Positions 243-19,758 of a stretch of 31,316 nt of DNA are shown one piece after another (position 1 is the first letter of the stretch; every line of letters starts with the position of its first letter). The DNA comes from a virus. Location of the stretch: the IMG/VR virus record IMGVR_UViG_3300032217_001251, positions 1 to 31,316 of that record. One strand, given 5' to 3'. The notes under the pieces are model-generated. The model was not told the origin of the DNA. It ran no database searches and saw only the letters and a program-made list of their open reading frames with translations. Made by a program: the position numbers and the translations under genes.

Positions 243-258
243 TTCTGATCGGTTTTTG

Positions 259-307
259 CTTCCCTGATAAGGAAGAGGTCGATGGTTCAAGTCCATCTAG
301 GCCCACC
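259..307 (+). other. attP: attP core: 3' half of a tRNA-Ile(GAU) gene
   Basis: The sequence folds as the second half of a tRNA: anticodon stem CTTCC/GGAAG (259-263/271-275) around loop CTGATAA with anticodon GAT at 266-268, a 5-nt variable loop, T stem GATGG/CCATC (281-285/293-297) with loop TTCAAGT, then acceptor strand TAGGCCC, discriminator A and CC. The expected 5' strand GGGCCTA and a D arm are absent upstream, so it cannot make a tRNA alone. Phages that integrate at the 3' end of a tRNA gene carry this half so that the host gene is rebuilt. The integrase gene close by and the arm repeats on both sides support attP. The crossover point within the core cannot be placed without the host attB. 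Confidence 0.85.
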
Positions 308-333
308 GTTCAAAACAGTTGGTACATAACAGG

Positions 334-371
334 TTCAGCCCGCATTGTCGAAAATGACAGTGCGGGCTGAA
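334..371. terminator. Long hairpin just after the tRNA-derived core
   Basis: Sixteen-base arms (334-349 and 356-371) pair with a single G-U/mismatch position and a 6-nt loop GAAAAT. The arms begin TTCAGCCCGC. No U-tract follows on either strand, so it would be a stem-only terminator if it terminates. After integration it would lie 26 nt downstream of the rebuilt tRNA-Ile, a natural place for a phage-supplied tRNA terminator or 3' processing element. A role inside the integrase complex cannot be excluded. Confidence 0.5.
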
Positions 372-378
372 CTGCTTC

Positions 379-406: not shown

Positions 407-721
407 ATGGGCTTCTTTAGTCAAGACTGTCAGGCATGCGGTGAAAGCGTTAAAGCACCGTATGACCTACCTGGCGAAATCGCTTGGCACAACAAGGCTG
501 TAGCGATTACGCCGTCAGAAAGCATCATCAAAGGACCGTACGACGGTTACGGAAACATCGACTACGACGAAATGTCCTATATGGACGATTCTCGGATGGA
601 TATAGGCGGAGACAACACCGTTTATCACCAGCGTTGCTGGGAGAAATTAGGCAGCCCAACAAAATATGACGGAAAAAGTGAAGACTCTAAAGATCAAGGA
701 TTCTTTTACAACTATCCATGA
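407..721 (+). CDS. Small putative zinc-binding protein next to attP
   Basis: A 104-residue protein with AGGAGA 5 nt before its ATG. It has C8-x2-C11 near the N terminus and H74-x2-C77 (in YHQRCW) towards the C terminus, a LIM/treble-clef-like arrangement able to hold one zinc ion. The middle is acidic and Tyr/Asp-rich. No family is assigned with confidence. The gene lies between attP and integrase, opposite to integrase, and their 3' ends overlap by 10 nt (712-721). In a lysogen it would lie immediately downstream of the rebuilt tRNA-Ile, so it could be expressed from the prophage, as lysogenic cargo genes are. That is inferred from position only. Confidence 0.75.
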   Translation: MGFFSQDCQACGESVKAPYDLPGEIAWHNKAVAITPSESIIKGPYDGYGNIDYDEMSYMDDSRMDIGGDNTVYHQRCWEKLGSPTKYDGKSEDSKDQGFFYNYP

Positions 722-1809
722 GATGCGGTCTCCTCAGGATTACGGCTCATTGCCTTCCAGGCGCTCTCAACAGCACCGTGAGCCCCTGGAACAAGATGCG
801 CGTACCGATTAGTCATCGTCGGCGTTGAATGTCCAAGAAGCTGCTGAATCTCCTTCAGCGGTACACCGGCTTGAGCCAGCCAAGATGCTGCAGTATGTCG
901 ACTGGCATGTGGCGGGTAAGCAGGAATATCAACGTCAGGATTTTTGGCATTGGCATCTTCAATTGCTCGATACCACTTCTTACGCCAGTTAGGACCGTTC
1001 AGCGGCTTACCAGTATTCGGTGTAACAAACAGCAATTCGTTAGACCTCTTTCCTGCCGCGAATGGACTAACAGCTTCAATCACATGTGCAGGCGCTGGAA
1101 CTTTGCGCTGAGACGTTTCAGTCTTAGGCCCATCCTTGATCCGACCAGACTGAGTAGTTACTTGGTCAACAGAAACAATCCGTCGCATCCAGTCAATATC
1201 GCCCACTCGCAATCCTGCACATTCACCCCAACGCAAACCAACCCACGCCATAAGGAGGACCATTGCACGATCACGATCGTCTAATTCTGCGCATATAAGT
1301 TCAATCTGCTTAGGCGTAAACCATTCAACAGATTTACTGTTCTGCTTCGGTGGTGTCACTCGATCGCAAGGATTACTTGAGATCAGTTCATCAGATGCTG
1401 CAATTTTCATACTTGTTCTAAACAAGTTGAATGCGCGAACTCGTGAACCTTGACCGACACCATCTTTTTCCAATTGTTTCAACCATTGTTGAATGGTTGT
1501 GGGTCTGATCTCAGCCAACGACATTTTGCCAAAATACGGAACGATGTGGTTGCTCATGATTGCTTTATCACCGCGTAGAGTTTCTGGTTCTACACGTCGA
1601 GCAGCCATAAAGATTTCGCTCCAGTCGGCGTATGTTGTCCGGCCAGATCGTGGATTAGCCCAATTGCCTTTTGAAATTTCTGCTTCTTGTTCTTTGGCCC
1701 ATAACGCAACTGTTTGCCGTAGAGGAGCAGATTTGGTAACTCGAGTTCCGTCTGGCAGACGCACAGAGGCTTGCCATTTTCCTGATGGCAGTTTTCTAAT
1801 TGCCGGCAT
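712..1809 (-). CDS. int: Tyrosine-type phage integrase
   Basis: A 365-residue site-specific recombinase that would recombine attP with tRNA-Ile. N-terminal arm-binding domain about residues 1-55 (PSGKWQASVRLPDG), SAM-like core-binding domain about 58-155, catalytic domain about 160-350. The catalytic set is complete: R193 (GLRWGE), K229 (GPKT), H301-x2-R304 (HASR), H327 (LLGH) and the nucleophile Y336 (NRYAHL). Length is usual for actinophage integrases. Its ATG overlaps the repressor stop as TGATG, so the two genes are probably one leftward, translationally coupled operon. Confidence 0.95.
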   Translation of the reverse strand: MPAIRKLPSGKWQASVRLPDGTRVTKSAPLRQTVALWAKEQEAEISKGNWANPRSGRTTYADWSEIFMAARRVEPETLRGDKAIMSNHIVPYFGKMSLAEIRPTTIQQWLKQLEKDGVGQGSRVRAFNLFRTSMKIAASDELISSNPCDRVTPPKQNSKSVEWFTPKQIELICAELDDRDRAMVLLMAWVGLRWGECAGLRVGDIDWMRRIVSVDQVTTQSGRIKDGPKTETSQRKVPAPAHVIEAVSPFAAGKRSNELLFVTPNTGKPLNGPNWRKKWYRAIEDANAKNPDVDIPAYPPHASRHTAASWLAQAGVPLKEIQQLLGHSTPTMTNRYAHLVPGAHGAVESAWKAMSRNPEETASHG

Positions 1810-2183
1810 CAGACGGTCCTGTTGGCGCGGACGTATGCGTCGAATGTTGCTTGAGCAATTTCTCGAGCGCGAATGACAATGTCGGCGCTAACTGCTTCGG
1901 AAAGGGTAAGTGTCAGGTCGGTTGGTTCTATCGCGTTTTCGCTAATGATTCCGTCGATAGTTCCTGATGACCAGTTCAGGCCAACTTCTAATGCGACCAG
2001 AGTGTTTCTGTCTACGGCGCGTGGTTGTCCTGATTCGATGGATGTGATGGTTCGGTAGTCCAGGCCGGTTTCGCGTGCTAGTGATCTAGCTGATCGGTAG
2101 CCCATGGCGACACGTCTGTGTGCGATGGCTTTACCAAGCCGGTCTGCTGCTGTTTTGTCTAAATCGACTGTCCCTCGTGACAT
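1809..2183 (-). CDS. XRE/Cro-CI-type HTH repressor
   Basis: A 124-residue DNA-binding protein with an XRE helix-turn-helix around residues 16-70 (LGKAIAHRRVAMG, then RSLARETGLDYRTITSIESG). It has a C-terminal helical extension but no LexA-like peptidase domain. The start at 2183 is chosen because GGAGGA lies 5-6 nt before it; an in-frame ATG at 2219 has no such site. Position next to int and divergent from the excisionase-like gene suggests it is the lysogeny repressor. A Cro-like role is possible because no second XRE gene is visible. Confidence 0.85.
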   Translation of the reverse strand: MSRGTVDLDKTAADRLGKAIAHRRVAMGYRSARSLARETGLDYRTITSIESGQPRAVDRNTLVALEVGLNWSSGTIDGIISENAIEPTDLTLTLSEAVSADIVIRAREIAQATFDAYVRANRTV

Positions 2184-2350
2184 TTCTGTCCTCCGATGTT
2201 CTGTGTTGTCTTGTAACACAAGTACTTAATGTACTTACTGAATCATACTGACACACCAATCAGTTAATTAAGCATCAGTCGTTTGGAGTAATTAACGACA
2301 CACCAGTGCTTATAAATGCATCAAATAAAACAATGTGATACAACAAACTC
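2184..2350. promoter_or_regulatory. Divergent control region between repressor and excisionase-like gene
   Basis: This 167-nt non-coding stretch contains several candidate operators. There is a palindrome AAGTACTT (2220-2227) with a second half-copy ATGTACTT (2229-2236), and two direct copies of GACACACCA(A/G)T (2250-2260 and 2297-2307), with a weaker third copy inside the start of the next gene (about 2357). TTAATTAA (2264-2271) and TAATTAA (2289-2295) add AT-rich symmetry. The rightward promoter lies at 2336-2344. This is where a phage genetic switch would be expected; which element binds the repressor is not known. Confidence 0.55.
2336..2344 (+). promoter_or_regulatory. Extended -10 promoter for a leaderless transcript
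   Basis: TGA followed by TACAAC (2339-2344) matches an extended -10 element. The A of the ATG at 2351 is 7 nt beyond it, the expected transcription start. No Shine-Dalgarno sequence precedes that ATG, so the mRNA is probably leaderless, which is common in actinobacteria. The surrounding 14 nt are nearly identical to those of the promoter at 4115-4128. No convincing -35 was found. Confidence 0.5.
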
Positions 2351-2759: not shown

Positions 2760-3791
2760 ATGGATTATTACGACGAAGGATATGGATTCGGCGCATTCAA
2801 ACCAGCCTGGCATCACAAAATGCCAGTGCTCAATTTTCGACCAGTTGGATGGGCTGAAGCAGCTCGTCACGCAAACCTTGACTGGGATATCGAATCTGTT
2901 CCCGTATTTCGCGGCACAGAATACGAATCACTTGTTCAAGTAAGCAACTATCAACTCATCGTTCGTGACGATAAAGACGCGACTGATCCAGAAGCAATTC
3001 TGCATGTTGCAAAATCGTCATACACGCCCATCACCAATGCTGAATTCGGTGAAATCATCGAATTCATTTGGCAAGGCGCAGGACTTGGCATTAAGCCAGA
3101 GTTCGAAACTCTCATCTCGCTTAAAGGTGGACGCGTTATCGCGTGCACACTAATTCTTGGCGATAAAGAAATCAGCCGAGACTCGTCACCTATCAGGCAA
3201 TACATCGCCGGATTTACCAGCCACGACGGCAGTTCTAAGCTGCGCATCGGCAATACCGATGTTCGTATCGTGTGTGCAAATACGCAAAATGCGGCTAACG
3301 CTGATTTTGAAGGAAGCGGCCGTTTCGGAGAGATCATGCACACACCTAACTGGCGCGACATGCTTCCTAAGGTGACAGAGCAAGTGAGACATTCACTTGA
3401 TACTGCTGAAAAGAACATCAAGTTGTATGACGAAATGTCGACGACGTTCATCACGACTGAGCAGATGCACGATTTCATTTCTAAGTATGTGGCTGCTGAG
3501 ATCAAGCGAATTTATCGCGATCGTAAGCCAGATACCGAAATCGTTGAGAAGACCAGTCGAAAGATTTCTAACTCCTTCTTAGACGTGTATGACGGTGCTC
3601 TTGGTTCCGGCACGATGGAAGGAATTCGTGGTACTAAGTGGGGTCTGTACCAGGCGGTGACGCAGATGCGTGATCATCACACAGCGCATCACGGTTTGAG
3701 TGATGGAAACTACGACACTCTCATCGGTCGAACACTGCTTTACGGTGATGCGCCGAAAAATAATGCGATGAAGATTTTGGCGAAGGTCTAA
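2760..3791 (+). CDS. DUF932 / TIGR03299-type phage-plasmid protein
   Basis: A 343-residue protein of the DUF932 family, widespread in phages and plasmids and of uncertain biochemical role. Recognisable points are the N-terminal PAWH segment (residues 15-18), the central tract ending LKGGRVIACTLIL (about 121-133) and the VCANTQNA motif (171-178), with a helical C-terminal half. Length is normal. The ATG follows a GGAAAGAAG ribosome site. Its stop overlaps the next start as TAATG, so the two are translationally coupled. Confidence 0.8.
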   Translation: MDYYDEGYGFGAFKPAWHHKMPVLNFRPVGWAEAARHANLDWDIESVPVFRGTEYESLVQVSNYQLIVRDDKDATDPEAILHVAKSSYTPITNAEFGEIIEFIWQGAGLGIKPEFETLISLKGGRVIACTLILGDKEISRDSSPIRQYIAGFTSHDGSSKLRIGNTDVRIVCANTQNAANADFEGSGRFGEIMHTPNWRDMLPKVTEQVRHSLDTAEKNIKLYDEMSTTFITTEQMHDFISKYVAAEIKRIYRDRKPDTEIVEKTSRKISNSFLDVYDGALGSGTMEGIRGTKWGLYQAVTQMRDHHTAHHGLSDGNYDTLIGRTLLYGDAPKNNAMKILAKV

Positions 3792-4114: not shown

Positions 4115-4128
4115 CATTGTGATACAAT
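4115..4128 (+). promoter_or_regulatory. Extended -10 promoter with a palindromic -10 region
   Basis: TGA (4120-4122) plus TACAAT (4123-4128) is an extended -10 element one base from consensus. The 13-mer ATTGT-GAT-ACAAT (4116-4128) is an inverted repeat covering the -10, so a repressor could bind here. Fourteen bases match 2331-2344 with two differences, suggesting co-regulation with the excisionase-like gene. The predicted start is near 4135. No strong -35 is seen. Confidence 0.5.
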
Positions 4129-4134
4129 AGAGAT

Positions 4135-4230
4135 GAAGCAAGCGCATCCCCATGTGCTCTTCAGCCGCCACAAGCGGAACAAGAAGACCTCTGACAGTGA
4201 TCCCCCTCCTGTCAGAGGTCTTCTTTCTAT
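4135..4230 (+). ncRNA. Structured leader or small RNA ending in a strong stem-loop
   Basis: Downstream of the 4123 promoter the sequence folds into three consecutive hairpins: 4141-4158 (7 bp with one G-U, CCCC loop), 4165-4177 (CCGC/GCGG) and a perfect 17-bp stem 4181-4197/4209-4225 with an 11-nt loop, followed by TCTATTC. The last stem ends 26 nt before the next ATG (4252), leaving no room for another promoter. It is therefore either the attenuated leader of that gene or a small RNA of about 95 nt with occasional read-through. Confidence 0.5.
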
Positions 4231-4251
4231 TCAACCAAAGAAAGGAAAACC

Positions 4252-4503
4252 ATGGATCACGAGCTTCTATGCCCTCGCGGTATATGGATTTTAGGACGTC
4301 ATGAAGGACAAATTAAATGGCATATGGCCCTCGAGAAAGAGTGCCTGTGCGACATCATCGCTCAACTGCGTGAAGAACTACGCGCAGAGTTAGAGCGTGA
4401 TCAACCTAAAGCCTATGAGCGCCTGGCTGTAGATAAGCCCACCAGTCCACTCACCATGATCGGTCGAGGATCTGTCAGCAATTCAGAAAGGGCAAAACTG
4501 TGA
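4252..4503 (+). CDS. Unrecognised 83-residue early protein
   Basis: AAAGAAAGGA stands before the ATG. The N-terminal half is tryptophan- and histidine-containing. A charged amphipathic helix (about residues 34-60, LREELRAELERD) follows and the tail is Ser/Thr-rich. No family is recognised. It follows the long stem-loop at 4181-4225, and its TGA overlaps the next ATG as TGATG, making it the first of three coupled genes (4252, 4503, 4586). Confidence 0.7.
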   Translation: MDHELLCPRGIWILGRHEGQIKWHMALEKECLCDIIAQLREELRAELERDQPKAYERLAVDKPTSPLTMIGRGSVSNSERAKL

Positions 4504-4589
4504 TGTCTAACCGCGAAATTTATTACATCGGATTATCCATCGTTCTAGCCACCATTCTTACCGGATTTCTTTTGGAGAAGCTGCAATGA
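4503..4589 (+). CDS. Tiny 28-residue membrane peptide
   Basis: Starts on the overlap TGATG at 4503 and ends TGA at 4587-4589, which itself overlaps the next ATG as ATGA. The product is essentially one hydrophobic helix (YYIGLSIVLATILTGFLL) with a short basic start and an EKLQ end. Overlaps at both ends make translational coupling likely. Its own ribosome site is weak. Function unknown. Confidence 0.55.
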   Translation: MSNREIYYIGLSIVLATILTGFLLEKLQ

Positions 4590-4885
4590 CTGTCACTATT
4601 AGTTCATCAGATGCCAAGCGCATTGCTCAGTTCATTGATCCTCAAAATGATGAGCAGGCAACATTAAGTGAGCAGGAGTGCGACAGGCTTGTTTCGTTGC
4701 TCCGGCCACCTTTAGCCCTTAATGCGATTCATCAAATTGTGCTTACTGGCATGACAAAAAGTGCAAGCGCTGAAGATATTTCTATAAATATCTGTACACA
4801 GTTGCATTCACTGTTATCAGAGGTAGTTGAGGACGAAAAATGCGGCCTTAAACATGCTCTTTTGAGTCTGTTTAAAGACGTGTAG
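4586..4885 (+). CDS. Unrecognised 99-residue early protein
   Basis: The start is supported by TTGGAGA inside the preceding tiny gene, about 8 nt before the ATG. The protein is mainly helical and soluble, with a mid-region VTGMTKSASAEDI-like loop and no visible catalytic motif. The stop codon TAG lies inside the left arm of the stem-loop at 4884-4907, so it is the last gene of its transcription unit. Confidence 0.65.
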   Translation: MTVTISSSDAKRIAQFIDPQNDEQATLSEQECDRLVSLLRPPLALNAIHQIVLTGMTKSASAEDISINICTQLHSLLSEVVEDEKCGLKHALLSLFKDV

Positions 4886-4910
4886 ATGTACATAAAGTTG
4901 TACATCTTTT
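4884..4910 (+). terminator. Rho-independent terminator after the 4586 gene
   Basis: A perfect 9-bp stem AGATGTACA/TGTACATCT (4884-4892/4899-4907) with a 6-nt loop is followed by TTTGCTTT. The stem is AT-rich but otherwise a typical intrinsic terminator. It closes the transcription unit starting at 4123 or earlier. Confidence 0.65.
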
Positions 4911-4930
4911 GCTTTAAAAGCATCAAATTG

Positions 4931-4990
4931 TTACTTAAAGTAAATAAAATCGGCTAAATAGTTGCGTCTTATTACAGAAAGTGACATAAT
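4931..4990 (+). promoter_or_regulatory. Promoter TTGCGT-N17-CATAAT with upstream palindrome
   Basis: A -35 TTGCGT (4962-4967), 17-nt spacer and -10 CATAAT (4985-4990) preceded by TGA give the best full promoter in the early region. TTACTTAAAGTAA (4931-4943), a 6-bp inverted repeat, lies just upstream and could be an activator or repressor site. The predicted start is near 4997, 143 nt before the next ATG. Confidence 0.6.
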
Positions 4991-4996
4991 AGTAGT

Positions 4997-5117
4997 ACAG
5001 CAGCAAAGACGCACTGTGCTCACTTGCAGCTGAGATTCACGTACTAAGACAGTCCCAGAGTGGACTCGAGGCGAGAATCGCAAACACCAGGCTCCAACCA
5101 AACAGGTTGGGGCCTTT
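4997..5117 (+). ncRNA. Structured leader or small RNA ending in a terminator-like hairpin
   Basis: Between the promoter and the gene at 5140 no good reading frame is seen. The transcript can form a branched stem with CAGC/GCTG ends (about 5001-5032), a 5-bp hairpin AGTCC/GGACT (5051-5066), a 4-bp hairpin GCGA/TCGC (5071-5081) and the final 11-bp stem AGGCTCCAACC/GGTTGGGGCCT (5089-5099/5105-5115), followed by TTCCTCATTT. The first 30 nt resemble the 4135 leader (AGCAA, then GCGCA or ACGCA, then TGTGCTC). It is either an attenuated 5' leader or a small RNA of about 120 nt. Confidence 0.5.
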
Positions 5118-5139
5118 CCTCATTTAAGGAGACACTTTC

Positions 5140-5496
5140 ATGATTGATACTGCTTTTCTATCAATTGACCTTGGTATAGCCGCCAAGCAAGCGTCCAAGC
5201 CTCTCCCCGCCAATTACATGGAAGGCGCGGCTGTTCTCTCTCACTGGTATTCAACATACAAGGACGTTTCAGCCTGGATGTATACGCATGCTCCGGATGA
5301 TGAATTTCGCGAGTATGTGGCGCAAAGCAGCCTCAAGGCTGAAGCTCTTGGCGATCTGGCAGATTTGGCGTACTGCTCGCAAAACATGTACGAGTACGAA
5401 GTCCTGCCAGAGTTCGCAGATATGTCTAAGCATCAAAAATTCTTCACCGCGCTCAACGACATCATTTCAAGTTATGTCGGCCAGCCAGGTTTTTAA
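5140..5496 (+). CDS. Unrecognised 118-residue early protein
   Basis: TTAAGGAGA lies 9 nt before the ATG. It is an acidic, mostly helical, soluble protein with many aromatic residues (HWYSTYKDVSAWMY). No cysteine pair or catalytic motif stands out, and no family is recognised. It is flanked on both sides by hairpins of the same GGTTGGGGCC type, so it forms a single-gene unit downstream of the 4985 promoter. Confidence 0.7.
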   Translation: MIDTAFLSIDLGIAAKQASKPLPANYMEGAAVLSHWYSTYKDVSAWMYTHAPDDEFREYVAQSSLKAEALGDLADLAYCSQNMYEYEVLPEFADMSKHQKFFTALNDIISSYVGQPGF

Positions 5497-5518
5497 TACG
5501 CCACAACAAACACAAAGT

Positions 5519-5551
5519 AAAGGCCCCAGCCAAAACGGTTGGGGCCTTTTT
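5519..5551 (+). terminator. Terminator-like stem-loop, GGTTGGGGCC family
   Basis: A 13-bp stem AAAGGCCCCAGCC/GGTTGGGGCCTTT (5519-5531/5537-5549, one G-U) with loop AAAAC and a following TTTTTCT is a strong intrinsic terminator. It ends 30 nt before the next ATG, too close for a separate -35/-10 promoter, so the following gene must be reached by read-through or antitermination. Confidence 0.75.
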
Positions 5552-5579
5552 CTATGTCAACTACTAGAAAGGCAACACA

Positions 5580-6098
5580 ATGACACAGCAACAACAAGCC
5601 ACAACAATCCGCATAATGACCAGCGACGAAATTCAAGAACGTCATGTCGCGCGTCAAAACTCGTCAGTCACCTACAACGGTCCAGCCCGCTACATTAACC
5701 CGCTAACCGACCGGCAAACATTTTCGCCAGTAGTTGACGAGATTGTTACAGAACGAGCAGACGGCTCATCATCATCTGCTTTTGTGTGCACCAAATGTGA
5801 TTACAACTCAACGAACTTTTTCGTTGTTCAGGCACATTACGCATGCCACTTCCCTAAGAAAGAAAAGGGCTCAAAGCCAGCAATCAAAGCTACACGAATC
5901 TCCTCAAGTCTCAACACACAAATCAGTGATCTGATTGAGACCGAGATTAAAAACGCAGTTGCTGCACAAATCGCCAAAGCCACAGCCAAACTGCAGAAAG
6001 AACGCGACGACGCAGTAGCAGCCGCTAAGAAAGCAAAAGCTGCTCAGCGAGACGCTGAACGTCGCCTAGACACAATCCGCAAATCATTAGCAATCTAA
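5580..6098 (+). CDS. C2H2 zinc-finger and coiled-coil protein
   Basis: A 172-residue protein with GAAAGG before its ATG. It carries one textbook C2H2 zinc finger: C70-x2-C73-x12-H86-x3-H90, with an aromatic residue two before C70 and a hydrophobic V83 at the usual leucine position. A basic linker follows. Residues about 112-168 form a long Ala/Lys/Glu-rich coiled coil (KATAKLQKERDDAV). The product is likely a dimeric nucleic-acid- or protein-binding regulator; this is inferred from architecture. No named family is recognised. Confidence 0.7.
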   Translation: MTQQQQATTIRIMTSDEIQERHVARQNSSVTYNGPARYINPLTDRQTFSPVVDEIVTERADGSSSSAFVCTKCDYNSTNFFVVQAHYACHFPKKEKGSKPAIKATRISSSLNTQISDLIETEIKNAVAAQIAKATAKLQKERDDAVAAAKKAKAAQRDAERRLDTIRKSLAI

Positions 6099-6110
6099 AA
6101 CTTGTCATAC

Positions 6111-6137
6111 AGCCCCCAGCCACATGGTTTGGGGCTT
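6111..6137 (+). terminator. Stem-loop of the same family before the 6181 gene
   Basis: AGCCCCCAGCC (6111-6121) pairs with GGTTTGGGGCT (6126-6136), with one C-T mismatch and a G-U pair, around loop ACAT. The tail TTGTTCGTATTT is only partly U-rich, so termination should be weaker than at 5519. It ends 44 nt before the start codon at 6181. Confidence 0.6.
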
Positions 6138-6180
6138 GTTCGTATTTACCGACCAACTAATAACTATGAAAGGCAATGAC

Positions 6181-6642
6181 ATGACATCTCAGCAAAACGA
6201 CTCAATGGAACCTGGCCTCACTGAAGAACTTAAAGAAATTCAAGCAGTAATCCAAAACGTTACATGGCTCAACCAGAAATATGAAGATGACTGGCGCCTA
6301 CTCGGCAAACTCCTTCATCAAGAAGCAAATAGCCGTAAATGGTGTGACGAATATCAAGAATTCGTGTGCAAAGTAAATTCTTTGACGACACATTTAAAAA
6401 TGGAATTCCCCGTTAGGGAATACTGCGTTTCATGGTCAACAGACGTGATCGTGACAGTCAGCGGAACAAAGAAGATCACTGCCTTTGATTCTGAAGACGC
6501 CGCACTAATTTTTCATGATCGTGCCGATATTGAAATTTCTCATTCGGACATGATCAGAGCCATCGACATGGGCAACTGGGATTGCGATGACATAGACATC
6601 AGCATCAACGACATCGAAACCATCGGTCCAGTTCAAGCTTAG
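6181..6642 (+). CDS. Unrecognised acidic 153-residue protein
   Basis: The start at 6181 is chosen because GAAAGG lies 7 nt before it. The open frame extends upstream through the hairpin at 6111-6137, but no ribosome site precedes the earlier ATG. The N-terminal third is helical (LTEELKEIQAVIQNV) and the C-terminal third is strongly acidic (DMGNWDCDDIDISINDIE). No family, membrane segment or signal peptide is visible. Acidic small phage proteins sometimes mimic DNA or inhibit host enzymes, but nothing specific supports that here. Confidence 0.7.
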   Translation: MTSQQNDSMEPGLTEELKEIQAVIQNVTWLNQKYEDDWRLLGKLLHQEANSRKWCDEYQEFVCKVNSLTTHLKMEFPVREYCVSWSTDVIVTVSGTKKITAFDSEDAALIFHDRADIEISHSDMIRAIDMGNWDCDDIDISINDIETIGPVQA

Positions 6643-6659
6643 CCGGCAAGAAACTGCTC

Positions 6660-6691
6660 AACCCCCAACCACATGGTTGGGGGTTTTCGTC
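6660..6691 (+). terminator. Stem-loop of the same family before the 6710 gene
   Basis: A perfect 11-bp stem AACCCCCAACC/GGTTGGGGGTT (6660-6670/6675-6685) with loop ACAT is followed by TTCGTCTTT. It is a good intrinsic terminator located 24 nt before the next ATG; the ribosome site AAAGGA lies in that gap. Confidence 0.7.
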
Positions 6692-6709
6692 TTTACGAAA
6701 GGAAACATC

Positions 6710-6901
6710 ATGGCTTTCTGCAGAATCTGCAAAACAGCAGTATCCACCTACAAACAAGTACCAACAGGCAGCTTGTACGTGTGGAACGGCACGGGCTTGG
6801 TTTTGGGCAAGGGGTTTGCTTACGCGTGCAGCGATGAATGCCAGGCAGTAATCATCGCTAACTCCGGTCGCATTGCACGTCTGAAGTTGGTGGCGTCATG
6901 A
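6710..6901 (+). CDS. Small treble-clef-type zinc protein with a tail-fibre-like insert
   Basis: A 63-residue protein. The start is at 6710, after GAAAGGA; an upstream in-frame ATG at 6677 lies inside the hairpin. Cysteines C4-x2-C7 and C40-x3-C44 form a probable zinc site. Between them lies the peptide LYVWNGTGLVLGK, which is nearly the same as LYVWNGSGWVLGK in the tail fibre encoded at 11389-13707, also at DNA level (see findings). Its TGA overlaps the next ATG as ATGA. Function unknown. Confidence 0.7.
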   Translation: MAFCRICKTAVSTYKQVPTGSLYVWNGTGLVLGKGFAYACSDECQAVIIANSGRIARLKLVAS

Positions 6902-7170
6902 GACTCCCTTCGCTTCGTTGCGAATACTGCGGCGACGACATGAACGACGACACATGCCCAAACTATAAATCCAGCTGCATCACCTGCTGCATCGAAAGTG
7001 GCGACATATGTGGCCACCATCAATGCAGCAGCACCTGCGAATGCGGATATCGAGAACAACACGGCTACAGCAAAGACGTTCTCTCACCCACACTTCTGAT
7101 CCTCGGATTCATCTTCCTACTCAGCATCGTCGGCGGCATTCAAACCGCCGGCTACCCAATCACCCCATAG
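6898..7170 (+). CDS. Cys-rich protein with a C-terminal membrane helix
   Basis: A 90-residue protein coupled to the previous gene by ATGA. The first 50 residues contain ten cysteines (C8, C11, C20, C27, C30, C31, C38, C43, C47, C49) and a HH pair at 40-41, enough for two zinc sites or several disulfides. One hydrophobic helix follows at about 62-81 (SPTLLILGFIFLLSIVGG). It is probably a tail-anchored membrane protein with a cytoplasmic zinc domain. Not recognised as a known family. Confidence 0.65.
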   Translation: MRLPSLRCEYCGDDMNDDTCPNYKSSCITCCIESGDICGHHQCSSTCECGYREQHGYSKDVLSPTLLILGFIFLLSIVGGIQTAGYPITP

Positions 7171-7183
7171 AAAGGACAAAAAC

Positions 7184-7525
7184 ATGTTCGACTTCGTACT
7201 CGACAATTTGTTCGACAAGTACAAGATCACTGTTCCTTTCCGCAAAGAAGCACGCATCCATATACGTGGTGTTGAACGAGGCGTCGATTCACATTCCACC
7301 GTTAATGGTTGGCTTGAATGTCCAGAGTGCGGCGGCCCTGTCAGTCTCGTTGTGCCAGTCGCAATTCATCGCACCTACCCACCAAGTAAAAACTGGGGAC
7401 GGCTAGCGGAAATGAATCATAAAGACTGCCCAGGCGAGTATCACACCGAAGATTGCTATCCACTTGTTTGCGTTGAATGCAAAGAGTGGTTCAACACTCC
7501 ATACGGCCTTGAAGTAGATATCTAA
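7184..7525 (+). CDS. Putative zinc-ribbon protein
   Basis: A 113-residue protein with AAAGGA before its ATG. Two CxxC knuckles, C46-x2-C49 (CPECGG) and C96-x2-C99 (CVECKEW), with C82 and C91 between them, form a likely zinc ribbon. The N-terminal 25 residues are amphipathic. It has no membrane segment and no recognised family. It lies only 13 nt after the Cys-rich membrane gene, so the 6710-7525 genes are probably expressed together. Confidence 0.65.
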   Translation: MFDFVLDNLFDKYKITVPFRKEARIHIRGVERGVDSHSTVNGWLECPECGGPVSLVVPVAIHRTYPPSKNWGRLAEMNHKDCPGEYHTEDCYPLVCVECKEWFNTPYGLEVDI

Positions 7526-7539
7526 CAACGGAGACTGCA

Positions 7540-7815
7540 ATGAATACTCGCACAAACGAAGAAGTCACTGTAACGATGACCGTTACTCTCAGTACATACC
7601 AAACGCTTATGGAAATTTTGTTTGACGCCGGCATGCAAGCCCTTGATCGTTGGGAAGAGGCAGACACTGCAATTACGTCAGCAATGACATGGTCCAACTG
7701 CAAAAGAGCTTCTGACGCTTTGTGCGAAGTTACAAAGCATTTAGAACCTTGGATGACGCCACCTATGACGGTAGACCTAAGTCAAACTTTCTCATTCAGA
7801 AATCACAACTCTTAA
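7540..7815 (+). CDS. Unrecognised 91-residue protein
   Basis: ACGGAGA stands 6 nt before the ATG. It is helical and acidic in the middle (LDRWEEADTAITSAM). There is no motif of known function. It is the last gene before the first of two similar intergenic hairpin elements (7821-7888). Confidence 0.65.
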   Translation: MNTRTNEEVTVTMTVTLSTYQTLMEILFDAGMQALDRWEEADTAITSAMTWSNCKRASDALCEVTKHLEPWMTPPMTVDLSQTFSFRNHNS

Positions 7816-7820
7816 CATAT

Positions 7821-7888
7821 CCCAGCACTACTCGACCCCATCTCTTGTTTCCCTGAGAGGTGGGGTTTTTGAAGTTCTGGGCCAGCCA
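7821..7888 (+). repeat. Intergenic structured element, copy 1
   Basis: An outer stem CCCAG/CTGGG (7821-7825/7877-7881) encloses an inner 11-bp terminator stem ACCCCATCTCT/AGAGGTGGGGT (7835-7845/7856-7866, one G-U) followed by TTTTG. The flanks, CCCAGCACTACTCG on the left and GAAGTTCTGGGCCAGCCA on the right, recur almost unchanged in copy 2 (8241-8304), while the inner stem differs in sequence but keeps its pairing. It sits between 7540-7815 and 7920-8240. It could be a terminator, an RNA-processing site or a protein-binding RNA. Confidence 0.6.
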
Positions 7889-7919
7889 GCAACTCACAAA
7901 ATAAGGAGAAATAAACATC

Positions 7920-8240
7920 ATGATCGATCCTCAAATTACACTCACCATCATCAACGACAATCCTGACTACAGCACCCGCTTAGAAGTAATCAAAGCCCAA
8001 TCATTTGGACTGTACACACAGCCCCTTTTAGAGAAGATGGCTGAAATTTCAGAAGGATGCATACTCGCTGAAATAAGTATTTCCGGCTATCTTCTGGGTC
8101 TGATGCTCATAGACAAACTTGAAGGTGTTGAGCAGTGGAACGAGTCCTTTACAAAGGTCGCCGACAACGCGCGTAAAGCCTTTGAAACAGTCGCATTCGA
8201 TCTCGAGTTTGTCTCGATTACTAATCAAATCGACAAGTAA
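7920..8240 (+). CDS. Unrecognised 106-residue protein
   Basis: ATAAGGAGA lies about 11 nt before the ATG. The protein is helical, with a moderately hydrophobic stretch (CILAEISISGYLLGLMLI, about residues 47-64) that could be a buried helix or a weak membrane segment. It is flanked on both sides by copies of the intergenic structured element, suggesting that gene and element duplicated or are regulated as a unit. No family is recognised. Confidence 0.65.
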   Translation: MIDPQITLTIINDNPDYSTRLEVIKAQSFGLYTQPLLEKMAEISEGCILAEISISGYLLGLMLIDKLEGVEQWNESFTKVADNARKAFETVAFDLEFVSITNQIDK

Positions 8241-8304
8241 CCCAGCATTACTCGGCCTCATCTTCTAACTAGAAGATGAGGCCTTTGGAGTTTTGGGCTA
8301 GCCA
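8241..8304 (+). repeat. Intergenic structured element, copy 2
   Basis: An outer stem CCCAG/TTGGG (8241-8245/8293-8297, last pair G-U) encloses a perfect 13-bp inner stem GGCCTCATCTTCT/AGAAGATGAGGCC (8254-8266/8271-8283), then TTT. Left flank CCCAGCATTACTCG and right flank GGAGTTTTGGGCTAGCCA align with copy 1, with only a few substitutions that keep the pairing. It ends about 32 nt before the next start codon at 8336. Confidence 0.6.
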
Positions 8305-10900: not shown

Positions 10901-10938
10901 AGCCCCCTGCTGCTCCCTTTTGGGAGCGGTAGGGGGCT
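10901..10938. terminator. Bidirectional terminator between early and late operons
   Basis: Seventeen consecutive pairs (10901-10917 with 10922-10938, two G-U) enclose a TTTT loop. The stem begins AGCCCCCTGC. Rightward, an eight-T run follows at 10946-10953. Leftward transcripts would have a weaker tail. It separates the end of the rightward genes (10736) from the end of the leftward late genes (10966). Confidence 0.75.
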
Positions 10939-19100: not shown

Positions 19101-19292
19101 AGGAGTTGATGTAGGCCGGTTAGGGGCCGGAATAGTAGGCGTCCACGTTGTGCCGTTATATGTCGGCACAGCACCATTAGGAATAGTTCCAGTATCTAAA
19201 CCAACAAGATCAGTCACATTATGTTTATGAGCTGCCGGAGGCATCGTTGTTGACGGGACAACAATGCGACCGCCATTAGTGGTTTCACTCAT
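16128..19292 (-). CDS. Tail fibre with fibronectin-like domains and S74 chaperone
   Basis: A 1054-residue fibre. The start ATG at 19292 (MSETTNGG) has GAGG upstream and overlaps the previous stop; a TTG at 19304 is less likely. Order: N-terminal attachment segment; two fibronectin-III-like domains about 55-300; a long Ser/Thr/Gly shaft with beta-helix-like repeats to about 920; C-terminal intramolecular chaperone (Peptidase_S74) from 925 to the end. S925 and K930 in SDMRDK form the autocleavage dyad; GFIAQQVKQA and LRYEEFISPIVSAI are typical chaperone helices. The chaperone trimerises the fibre and then cleaves itself off. The fibre probably binds the host receptor. Confidence 0.85.
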   Translation of the reverse strand: MSETTNGGRIVVPSTTMPPAAHKHNVTDLVGLDTGTIPNGAVPTYNGTTWTPTIPAPNRPTSTPGAPTFASTPTTGQSILPGVSTAATYITCTLTPPTTNTDSTTFSGAQSYAVRWRYENQANKPWTVVTSLAAVSNASDTGSTGGNVITFYGVKPGETISIEASVTDVYGNVSPWSYPATSVTAYKDGTPPNAPSTPVCTSYLSGIQVKWDGLDFAGAAQPVDFSYVDVHVGTSSTFTPSSATQVDRLLSAGQTFFMKDGSGTALTLGNTYYVRLIAYDYAGNASSVSTAGSAVVSFSVNTASGTGTLGANMVGFNARQIGGITTTISSTAPSSPVAGDIWLDTSSGTGVTQKQYTGSAWTVIQLNAGSIAANTITATQIAAAAITAGSAIIDTAAISSAQIASIDAGKISTGSLTATVGITTGKLFVGSSSTSGARITMDSTGIKTYNATASTPTFSLNSSTGAFAISSSGLSTGARVELDGSGLRAYDANGQTIDINANGNASFKGTINASTLAGMITTAAGATGNTQRAELDTAGLRIYNGTEKTVDIGPSSAYFKGTITAGTGSTISGDYISGGTISGVTITGGTVQTAASGGRVVLTGGTKSNQVSLLTGDGSETGSGFVSSTALSLSTWKNLWTTIGSPSVSSGSAASISLYGTGTGTGSNATNPYGREAHIELNPFAPTTDKVINVGWWPRVSGSGGAASLSFGTGTPAYLGFMDADGYYILMQSIAAQGVDAARSTYLSSSPGGTTYIKSNGNDGTGRIEVSSGNLAFVGATSLTGSLTLTGKINASGSLYLKPSSTVSGVIVNSSNDFVPETTSTSNLGTTAARWLAIVGTTLNLAGSITGASSVSAGASSATIVASNNGSTANAITVNNTTVSYNTTSAAWHPDTDNTYFLGSVSGPALRWKQICAATSTIATSDMRDKTDIETISPDGSFGMSFIRALNPVSYKFSNAGNEFVFDNKGNFVLDADGRRTIQPQTGLRPHTGFIAQQVKQAMDISGVSDWGGWVLGNKDDLQSEQALRYEEFISPIVSAIQNIDARLTALETK

Positions 19293-19758
19293 CACTAGCC
19301 TCAATCACTTTACGCTCACTGGCTACACGCAAAGCCTCGATGTATTCCTTACTCGTGCCCTGGACGATAACCGTATGCACATTTGCTGACTGACTAGTGA
19401 TGTCATCCAAGCCGAGCAATTTGCTGCGCTGGCTACTGATTTTTAAAATTAGTTCCGCAGATTTCACATCACCAGATAACGCGTTAAACCAATACGCTTC
19501 TTGCAATGCGTCAAGACGATCAACTTCCATCACCAGCATGGAACGCTTGCTGTACTCGTCAACTAGTTGGCTAGCAGAACGAATAGCCTCATCAACTCGA
19601 GCCATCGCTAGTGATTCAGTGATCCCTAGCTCTTCAGCGATATGCCACCACGATTTGCCTTGCTGGCGTAACTCGTAAGCCCGTCGAGCCTGCTTATTCT
19701 GTGCTTCAAGTAAGTCTGCTGCACTTTTGGCTTTAGTCACTCGCTTCACACTGCTCAT
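19285..19758 (-). CDS. HTH protein resembling actinophage terminase small subunit
   Basis: A 157-residue protein with a helix-turn-helix at about residues 24-58 (RRAYELRQQGKSWWHIAEEL, then GITESLAMARV). It continues with a helical region EVDRLDALQEAYWFNALSGD and LILKISSQRSKLLGLDD (about 78-118) of the kind found in small HTH/terminase-small-subunit proteins of actinobacterial phages. Its ATG overlaps the WhiB stop by 4 nt. A terminase role would mean binding of the packaging site, but no large terminase is adjacent, so it may instead be a regulator. Confidence 0.5.
   Translation of the reverse strand: MSSVKRVTKAKSAADLLEAQNKQARRAYELRQQGKSWWHIAEELGITESLAMARVDEAIRSASQLVDEYSKRSMLVMEVDRLDALQEAYWFNALSGDVKSAELILKISSQRSKLLGLDDITSQSANVHTVIVQGTSKEYIEALRVASERKVIEASDE

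Follow-up and report, generated by a model that had tools for sequence, protein, structure and literature searches.

The early region of the phage represented by IMG/VR record IMGVR_UViG_3300032217_001251, analyzed here at its full length (the window, corresponding to the complete record of 31,316 bases, 47.5% G+C), contains seven stem-loops on the plus strand, each lying shortly before the start of a gene. These hairpins probably serve as directional intrinsic terminators of graded strength that provide insulation of the early region during lysogeny and, by read-through, polar expression of the genes that follow. They are listed here together with D, the d'Aubenton-Carafa terminator score, taken as the best value per gap and controlled by 60 dinucleotide-preserving shuffles of each gap:

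4181-4223, plus strand: hairpin 1, putative leader terminator before the gene starting at 4252; D 6.9 sense and -1.6 antisense, attained by 0 of 60 shuffles
5089-5115, plus strand: hairpin 2, putative leader terminator before the gene starting at 5140; D 4.6, antisense -30.6, attained by 0 of 60 shuffles
5519-5549, plus strand: hairpin 3, intercistronic, with the strongest U-tail; D 41.4, antisense 7.8
6111-6136, plus strand: hairpin 4, intercistronic and the weakest, with a stem mismatch and a poor U-tail; D -7.1, antisense -87.9, above all 60 shuffles
6660-6685, plus strand: hairpin 5, intercistronic; D 26.1, antisense -6.4
7823-7883, plus strand: hairpin 6, a duplicated element with a terminator-like stem (7834-7865) within an outer CCCAG/CTGGG stem; D 9.7, antisense -59.8
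8241-8301, plus strand: hairpin 7, the second copy of the duplicated element, with its terminator-like stem at 8254-8283; D 4.5, antisense -40.0

An original prediction had listed seven terminator-like, mostly U-tailed stem-loops at these sites, and the scores bear this out. In all seven gaps, the observed D value exceeded those of all 60 shuffles, none of which rose above zero. Values above zero were obtained in six of the seven gaps, with a U-tract directly following a G+C-rich stem on the transcribed strand. By comparison, no such value was found in the 177 windows of early coding sequence or in the 676 sense windows of the late region (0/853 in total). When both strands of the entire window were scanned with a threshold of D > -5, the sense sites recovered comprised five of the seven hairpins and the one at 10902-10937, where the early and late blocks converge, while the only antisense site was the reverse of the hairpin at 5519. 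Because the plus strand scored better than the antisense strand in every one of the seven gaps, the hairpins would appear to be terminators acting at the RNA level rather than DNA palindromes. Other terminator-like hairpins on this strand include the following, of which the second is absent from the original prediction:

10902-10937, plus strand: terminator-like hairpin between the convergent early (plus) and late (minus) blocks; D 6.5 sense, free energy of folding (dG) -39
4884-4907, plus strand: weak A+T-rich terminator-like hairpin after the gene at 4586-4885; D -9.8

The stems of the seven hairpins contain 10-17 pairs and end, in order, 28, 24, 30, 44, 24, 54, and 52 nt before the next start codon. 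The hairpins at 4181 and 5089 lie 87 and 203 nt past the preceding stop codon; for the remainder, this distance is 22, 12, 17, 18, and 13 nt. All early codirectional gaps of at least 60 nt contain a hairpin, and no shorter gap does. The hairpins had been thought to form a per-gene system, but six early genes, starting at 4504, 4586, 6898, 7184, 7540, and 9391, are not preceded by one.

The window contains three sites matching the extended -10 motif GTGAYAYAAY (2335, 4119, and 4981), all on the plus strand and each preceding a block of genes; three or more such sites arose in 4 of 100 shuffles. Only 6 nt separate the end of the motif at 2335 from the start codon (ATG, 2351) of an excisionase-like gene, as in a leaderless transcript. 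The other two correspond to putative promoters:

4118-4128, plus strand: putative promoter P2, extended -10 TGTGATACAAT (GTGAYAYAAY site 4119)
4961-4990, plus strand: putative promoter P3, TTGCGT-17-CATAAT, extended -10 GTGACATAAT (GTGAYAYAAY site 4981)

Transcription is predicted to start near 4135 and 4997, giving leaders of approximately 45 and 90 nt before the respective hairpins. Since these predicted starts place the hairpins at 4181 and 5089 in leaders, the two are best considered as leader terminators following putative promoters, such that only five of the hairpins would be intercistronic. The three promoter-like motifs, together with the weak hairpin at 4884-4907, are at odds with the assignment of the region to one operon. 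For the five intercistronic starts, no promoter-like motif clearly above background was found within the 200 nt upstream, and the segments following the hairpins have no motif in common other than the Shine-Dalgarno sequence GAAAGG. Given the lack of a nearby promoter motif clearly above background, the genes following the intercistronic hairpins would depend on read-through, in agreement with the original expectation that read-through or upstream promoters are needed.

The original prediction had also assigned one core, CCCCARCC/GGTTGGGG, to four of the stems. This holds exactly for the hairpins at 5519 and 6660, but the hairpin at 5089 carries one G-U variant and that at 6111 one mid-stem mismatch. 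The stems at 7834 and 8254 represent a separate family, namely, an approximately 60-bp duplicated element, the copies of which are 83% identical, such that the seven hairpins comprise at least two unrelated stem families in addition to the stem at 4181. Between the two copies, three inner-stem pairs differ in both bases, with all 20 pairs preserved. A scan of IMG/VR for the core matched at least 119 stretches, 80 of which were retained for inspection. The core sites in these 80 stretches span approximately 31 to 71% G+C, with roughly half bearing a T-rich tail. In one unrelated phage (37% G+C), three near-identical CCCCAGCC/GGTTGGGG terminators lie between genes at 493, 1285, and 2081, some 800 bp apart; judging by eye from translations, two small genes of that phage, at 1390 and 1619, resemble a candidate HicA/HicB pair. 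As only 2 of 151 genomes of the putative host order contain the core stem, it was not obviously borrowed from host terminators. Because the stem recurs in unrelated phages, often with a T-rich tail, the core is, on this distribution, a common terminator stem reused by phages and not a private regulatory code. No copies of the exact 5519 stem were found in IMG/VR, nor were copies of the duplicated element found elsewhere. Searches of Rfam leader and small RNA families gave no match at gathering score; the best weak match, at 27 bits versus 55, was to the terminator portion of Thr_leader.

A working model can be proposed. The hairpins at 4181 and 5089 would end short leader RNAs initiated at P2 and P3, while the five intercistronic hairpins would stop transcription between cistrons, 12-22 nt past the upstream stop codon. 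In this position, a terminator hairpin is free to fold as soon as translation by the last ribosome has ended. In the lysogen, the hairpins would damp both leaky and incoming transcription. During lytic growth, the genes behind the hairpins would be expressed by partial read-through; since hairpin strengths differ widely, transcript levels would step down along the region. Incoming transcription is of relevance given the likely attachment site:

258-307, plus strand: likely attP core, matching the 3' portion of a tRNA-Ile(GAT) gene; 50-52 nt identity to actinobacterial tRNA-Ile genes
332-374, plus strand: long hairpin directly after the tRNA end; dG -34.5, without a U-tail

As 258-307 is the likely attP core, the phage is presumably temperate. 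After integration at tRNA-Ile, the host promoter of that tRNA would drive transcription into the prophage in the plus direction, and this transcription could be obstructed by the hairpin at 332-374 and then by the plus strand terminators. A terminator likewise insulates Tn916 (PMC11658703), and internal terminators serve as insulation in other mobile elements (PMC11658703, PMC8955417).

Several points weigh against assigning the hairpins to termination in this manner. D was calibrated on Escherichia coli and not on the host of this phage; moreover, D is below zero for the hairpin at 6111 and barely above zero for those at 4181, 5089, and 8254. The covariation in the duplicated pair is weak, involving two sequences and being equaled in 69 of 500 shuffles, and the U-tract of the duplicated elements lies inside an outer stem that is unneeded for termination alone. 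In favor of termination, hairpins near the next start were found, by one simple method, in 5/5 codirectional gaps of 61-130 nt here, in 7/13 such gaps in Streptomyces phage phiC31, in 7/9 in Arthrobacter phage LeeroyJ, and in 1/15 in putative host genomes, although this last comparison includes only 15 gaps from contigs of metagenome-assembled genomes with simple gene calls. A close relative with the same early genes, in which conservation of the layout would show, was found neither among phages by blastn or tblastn nor in scans of IMG/VR with three proteins, of genome contigs, or of Nanopelagicales genomes.

Of the rival explanations, the one that best survives, albeit as an unlikely one, is that the terminators are gated by a processive antiterminator, with the P2 and/or P3 transcripts carrying a cis-acting put-like RNA or recruiting a phage protein so as to pass the downstream hairpins in lytic growth. 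The number of terminators is indeed uncomfortably high for read-through alone. The candidate RNA lies in the P2 leader:

4134-4177, plus strand: structured P2 leader, comprising two predicted stem-loops separated by one unpaired base and beginning at the predicted transcription start

The fold of this leader (4134-4180) was more stable than those of all 200 shuffles (z score -3.75). In HK022 putL, a two-stem RNA situated just downstream of an early promoter, RNA polymerase passes terminators without a dedicated protein (PMC9378689), while in the canT system of Tn916 and in conAn-type conjugation operons, internal terminators are paired with antitermination (PMC11658703, PMC8955417). The likeness to put is, however, one of outline only, with the second stem containing 4 pairs and the element being approximately 44 nt long, as compared to approximately 70 nt for put. 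Nor is the P3 leader specially structured (z score -1.31), and the antitermination factor that the original prediction had proposed seeking was not recognized, with no family matches being obtained among the early proteins. A boxA-like sequence, TGCTCTTCA, considered as part of a nut-like boxA/boxB site in the P2 leader, falls inside the first stem and was rejected, since 9-mers with at most one mismatch occur in the window at the rate expected by chance. The P2 leader data also fit a short terminated RNA of approximately 95 nt. The stretch 4134-4230 could specify such a small RNA, with a putative promoter and a terminator of its own, and folds in prediction into three hairpins bearing C-rich loops (z score -8.9); it has no Rfam match. 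Slightly more doubtful is that the early region forms a termination-gated set of operons opened either by the put-like RNA or by a small cysteine-rich early protein; if so, a phage infecting freshwater actinobacteria would possess processive antitermination. Three consecutive small cysteine-rich (zinc-finger-like) early proteins, none with a family match, are encoded at 6710-7525. Attenuation in the strict sense, as had been suggested, is unlikely: in all seven cases, the best competing antiterminator pairing between upstream sequence and the 5' arm of the hairpin was no better than that seen with shuffled upstream sequence (p 0.26-0.99).

Less probable again is that the hairpins are elements of mRNA processing or stability, protecting the 3' ends of upstream cistrons or being cut by RNase III to yield monocistronic messages. 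Such a role would suit the position of the intercistronic hairpins just past stop codons, the long stems, and the outer stem surrounding the terminator-like stem in the duplicated elements, but would need neither U-tails confined to the sense strand nor high terminator scores, and most of the stems contain only 10-14 pairs. Start-associated control of translation, whereby the tail of each terminator would occlude the Shine-Dalgarno sequence of the gene that follows, akin to the start-associated elements of cluster K mycobacteriophages, is highly improbable. Although the Shine-Dalgarno sequence was less accessible than with shuffled tails in three of the seven cases (4181, 5519, and 8254; combined p 0.017), nothing was seen in the other four, and a U-rich tail will pair with a purine-rich Shine-Dalgarno sequence almost by composition. 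The identical Shine-Dalgarno sequence is, moreover, found at the hairpin-less start at 7184, and a search for the start-associated sequence (SAS) GGGATAGGAGCCC 3-7 bp before starts gave 4 matches with at most 3 mismatches versus 3.1 expected, none at the starts considered here. Finally, DNA-level palindromes with no role in RNA, whether bound by proteins or left behind by mobile repeats, could account for the existence of two sequence families, including the 60-bp duplicated element, but are the least probable reading of all, given the strong strand asymmetry of the U-tails and the strict placement of the hairpins in codirectional early gaps, with none in the late block.

In the window as a whole, nonstructural early genes on the plus strand converge with a minus-strand late block that includes two lysis genes and a gene encoding a tape-measure protein. 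Assigned features are:

712-1809, minus strand: integrase
1809-2219, minus strand: repressor-like gene
2351 (start), plus strand: excisionase-like gene
2760-3791: DUF932/TIGR03299 gene

Distant kin were found only for the DUF932-like gene, the gene at 3791, the integrase, and the tape-measure protein. The protein encoded at 19285-19758, within the late block and close to a RusA-like gene, matches a PHROG annotated as 'RNase E' (phrog_645, E value 3e-18). Identical copies of the tRNA-Ile end at 258-307 are present in 16 actinobacterial contigs, mostly from freshwater Nanopelagicales (acI) genomes. Taken with the G+C content of 47.5%, the best guess is that the host is probably of the Nanopelagicales type among freshwater actinobacteria, an assignment that is unproven since Aeromicrobium and Sporichthya carry the identical tRNA end.

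Should the hairpins indeed act as terminators, then this phage would control a set of early genes of unknown function mainly through the sites at which RNA polymerase halts, and less through a multitude of promoters. The region would then offer a compact natural test of intrinsic terminators, read-through, and possible antitermination in low-G+C freshwater actinobacteria, in which transcription has been little studied. Likewise, recognizing the apparently shared stem motif as a widespread terminator stem, as opposed to a code, aids in reading other phage genomes.

The closest known layout is that of phiC31, another actinophage, for which Ingham, Hunter and Smith reportedly described intergenic Rho-independent terminators in the early region in 1995. 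Temperate phiC31 resembles the phage considered here in that a strong hairpin occupies many of its mid-size codirectional gaps. By contrast, few of the phiC31 hairpins have U-tails, whereas those of the present phage are canonical, and the phiC31 gaps contain a recurring intergenic motif, GGGTTGCCGACTCCCTTA (8 copies), which we take to be a phage early promoter and which is absent here. In phiC31, this motif begins at the hairpin base, approximately 50 nt before the start, such that the original argument that gaps of this kind are too short for a promoter stands only in weakened form. Values of D above zero, obtained in 6/7 gaps here, were seen in 3/15 gaps of phiC31, 4/12 of phage TM4, and 1/7 of LeeroyJ. 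Many codirectional gaps of LeeroyJ, and of further phages carrying a DUF932-like gene, also contain a hairpin a short distance before the next start, albeit with lower occupancy and mostly without a U-tail. Across 80 IMG/VR phages with such a gene, hairpins were found in 14-44% of gaps, depending on G+C class, versus 1-16% of coding windows. Hairpins at early-gene boundaries are thus common in such phages, with the present phage lying at the extreme of occupancy. In one phage of 36% G+C, two of four gap hairpins have a loop and arm, CTTGTCGGTGGTA, in common.

The original prediction had likened the layout to the SAS and extended SAS (ESAS) repeats of cluster K mycobacteriophages. The comparison does not hold, since ESAS repeats are a family of inverted repeats tied to SAS (PMC3203893), which is missing from these starts. 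The stems here do not form one family with a 17-bp inverted-repeat consensus and, in the ESAS phage TM4, the sense strand scored no better than the antisense strand (5/12, versus 7/7 here). HK022 put, Tn916 canT, and bipartite conjugation systems resemble the present region in having several intrinsic terminators within an early or transfer gene set (PMC9378689, PMC11658703, PMC8955417), but differ in that the phage offers only a small put-like two-stem leader, an antiterminator that is a candidate only. Real and more complete than usual, the array nonetheless resembles a collection of ordinary transcription stop signals of the kind known from other phages and mobile elements.

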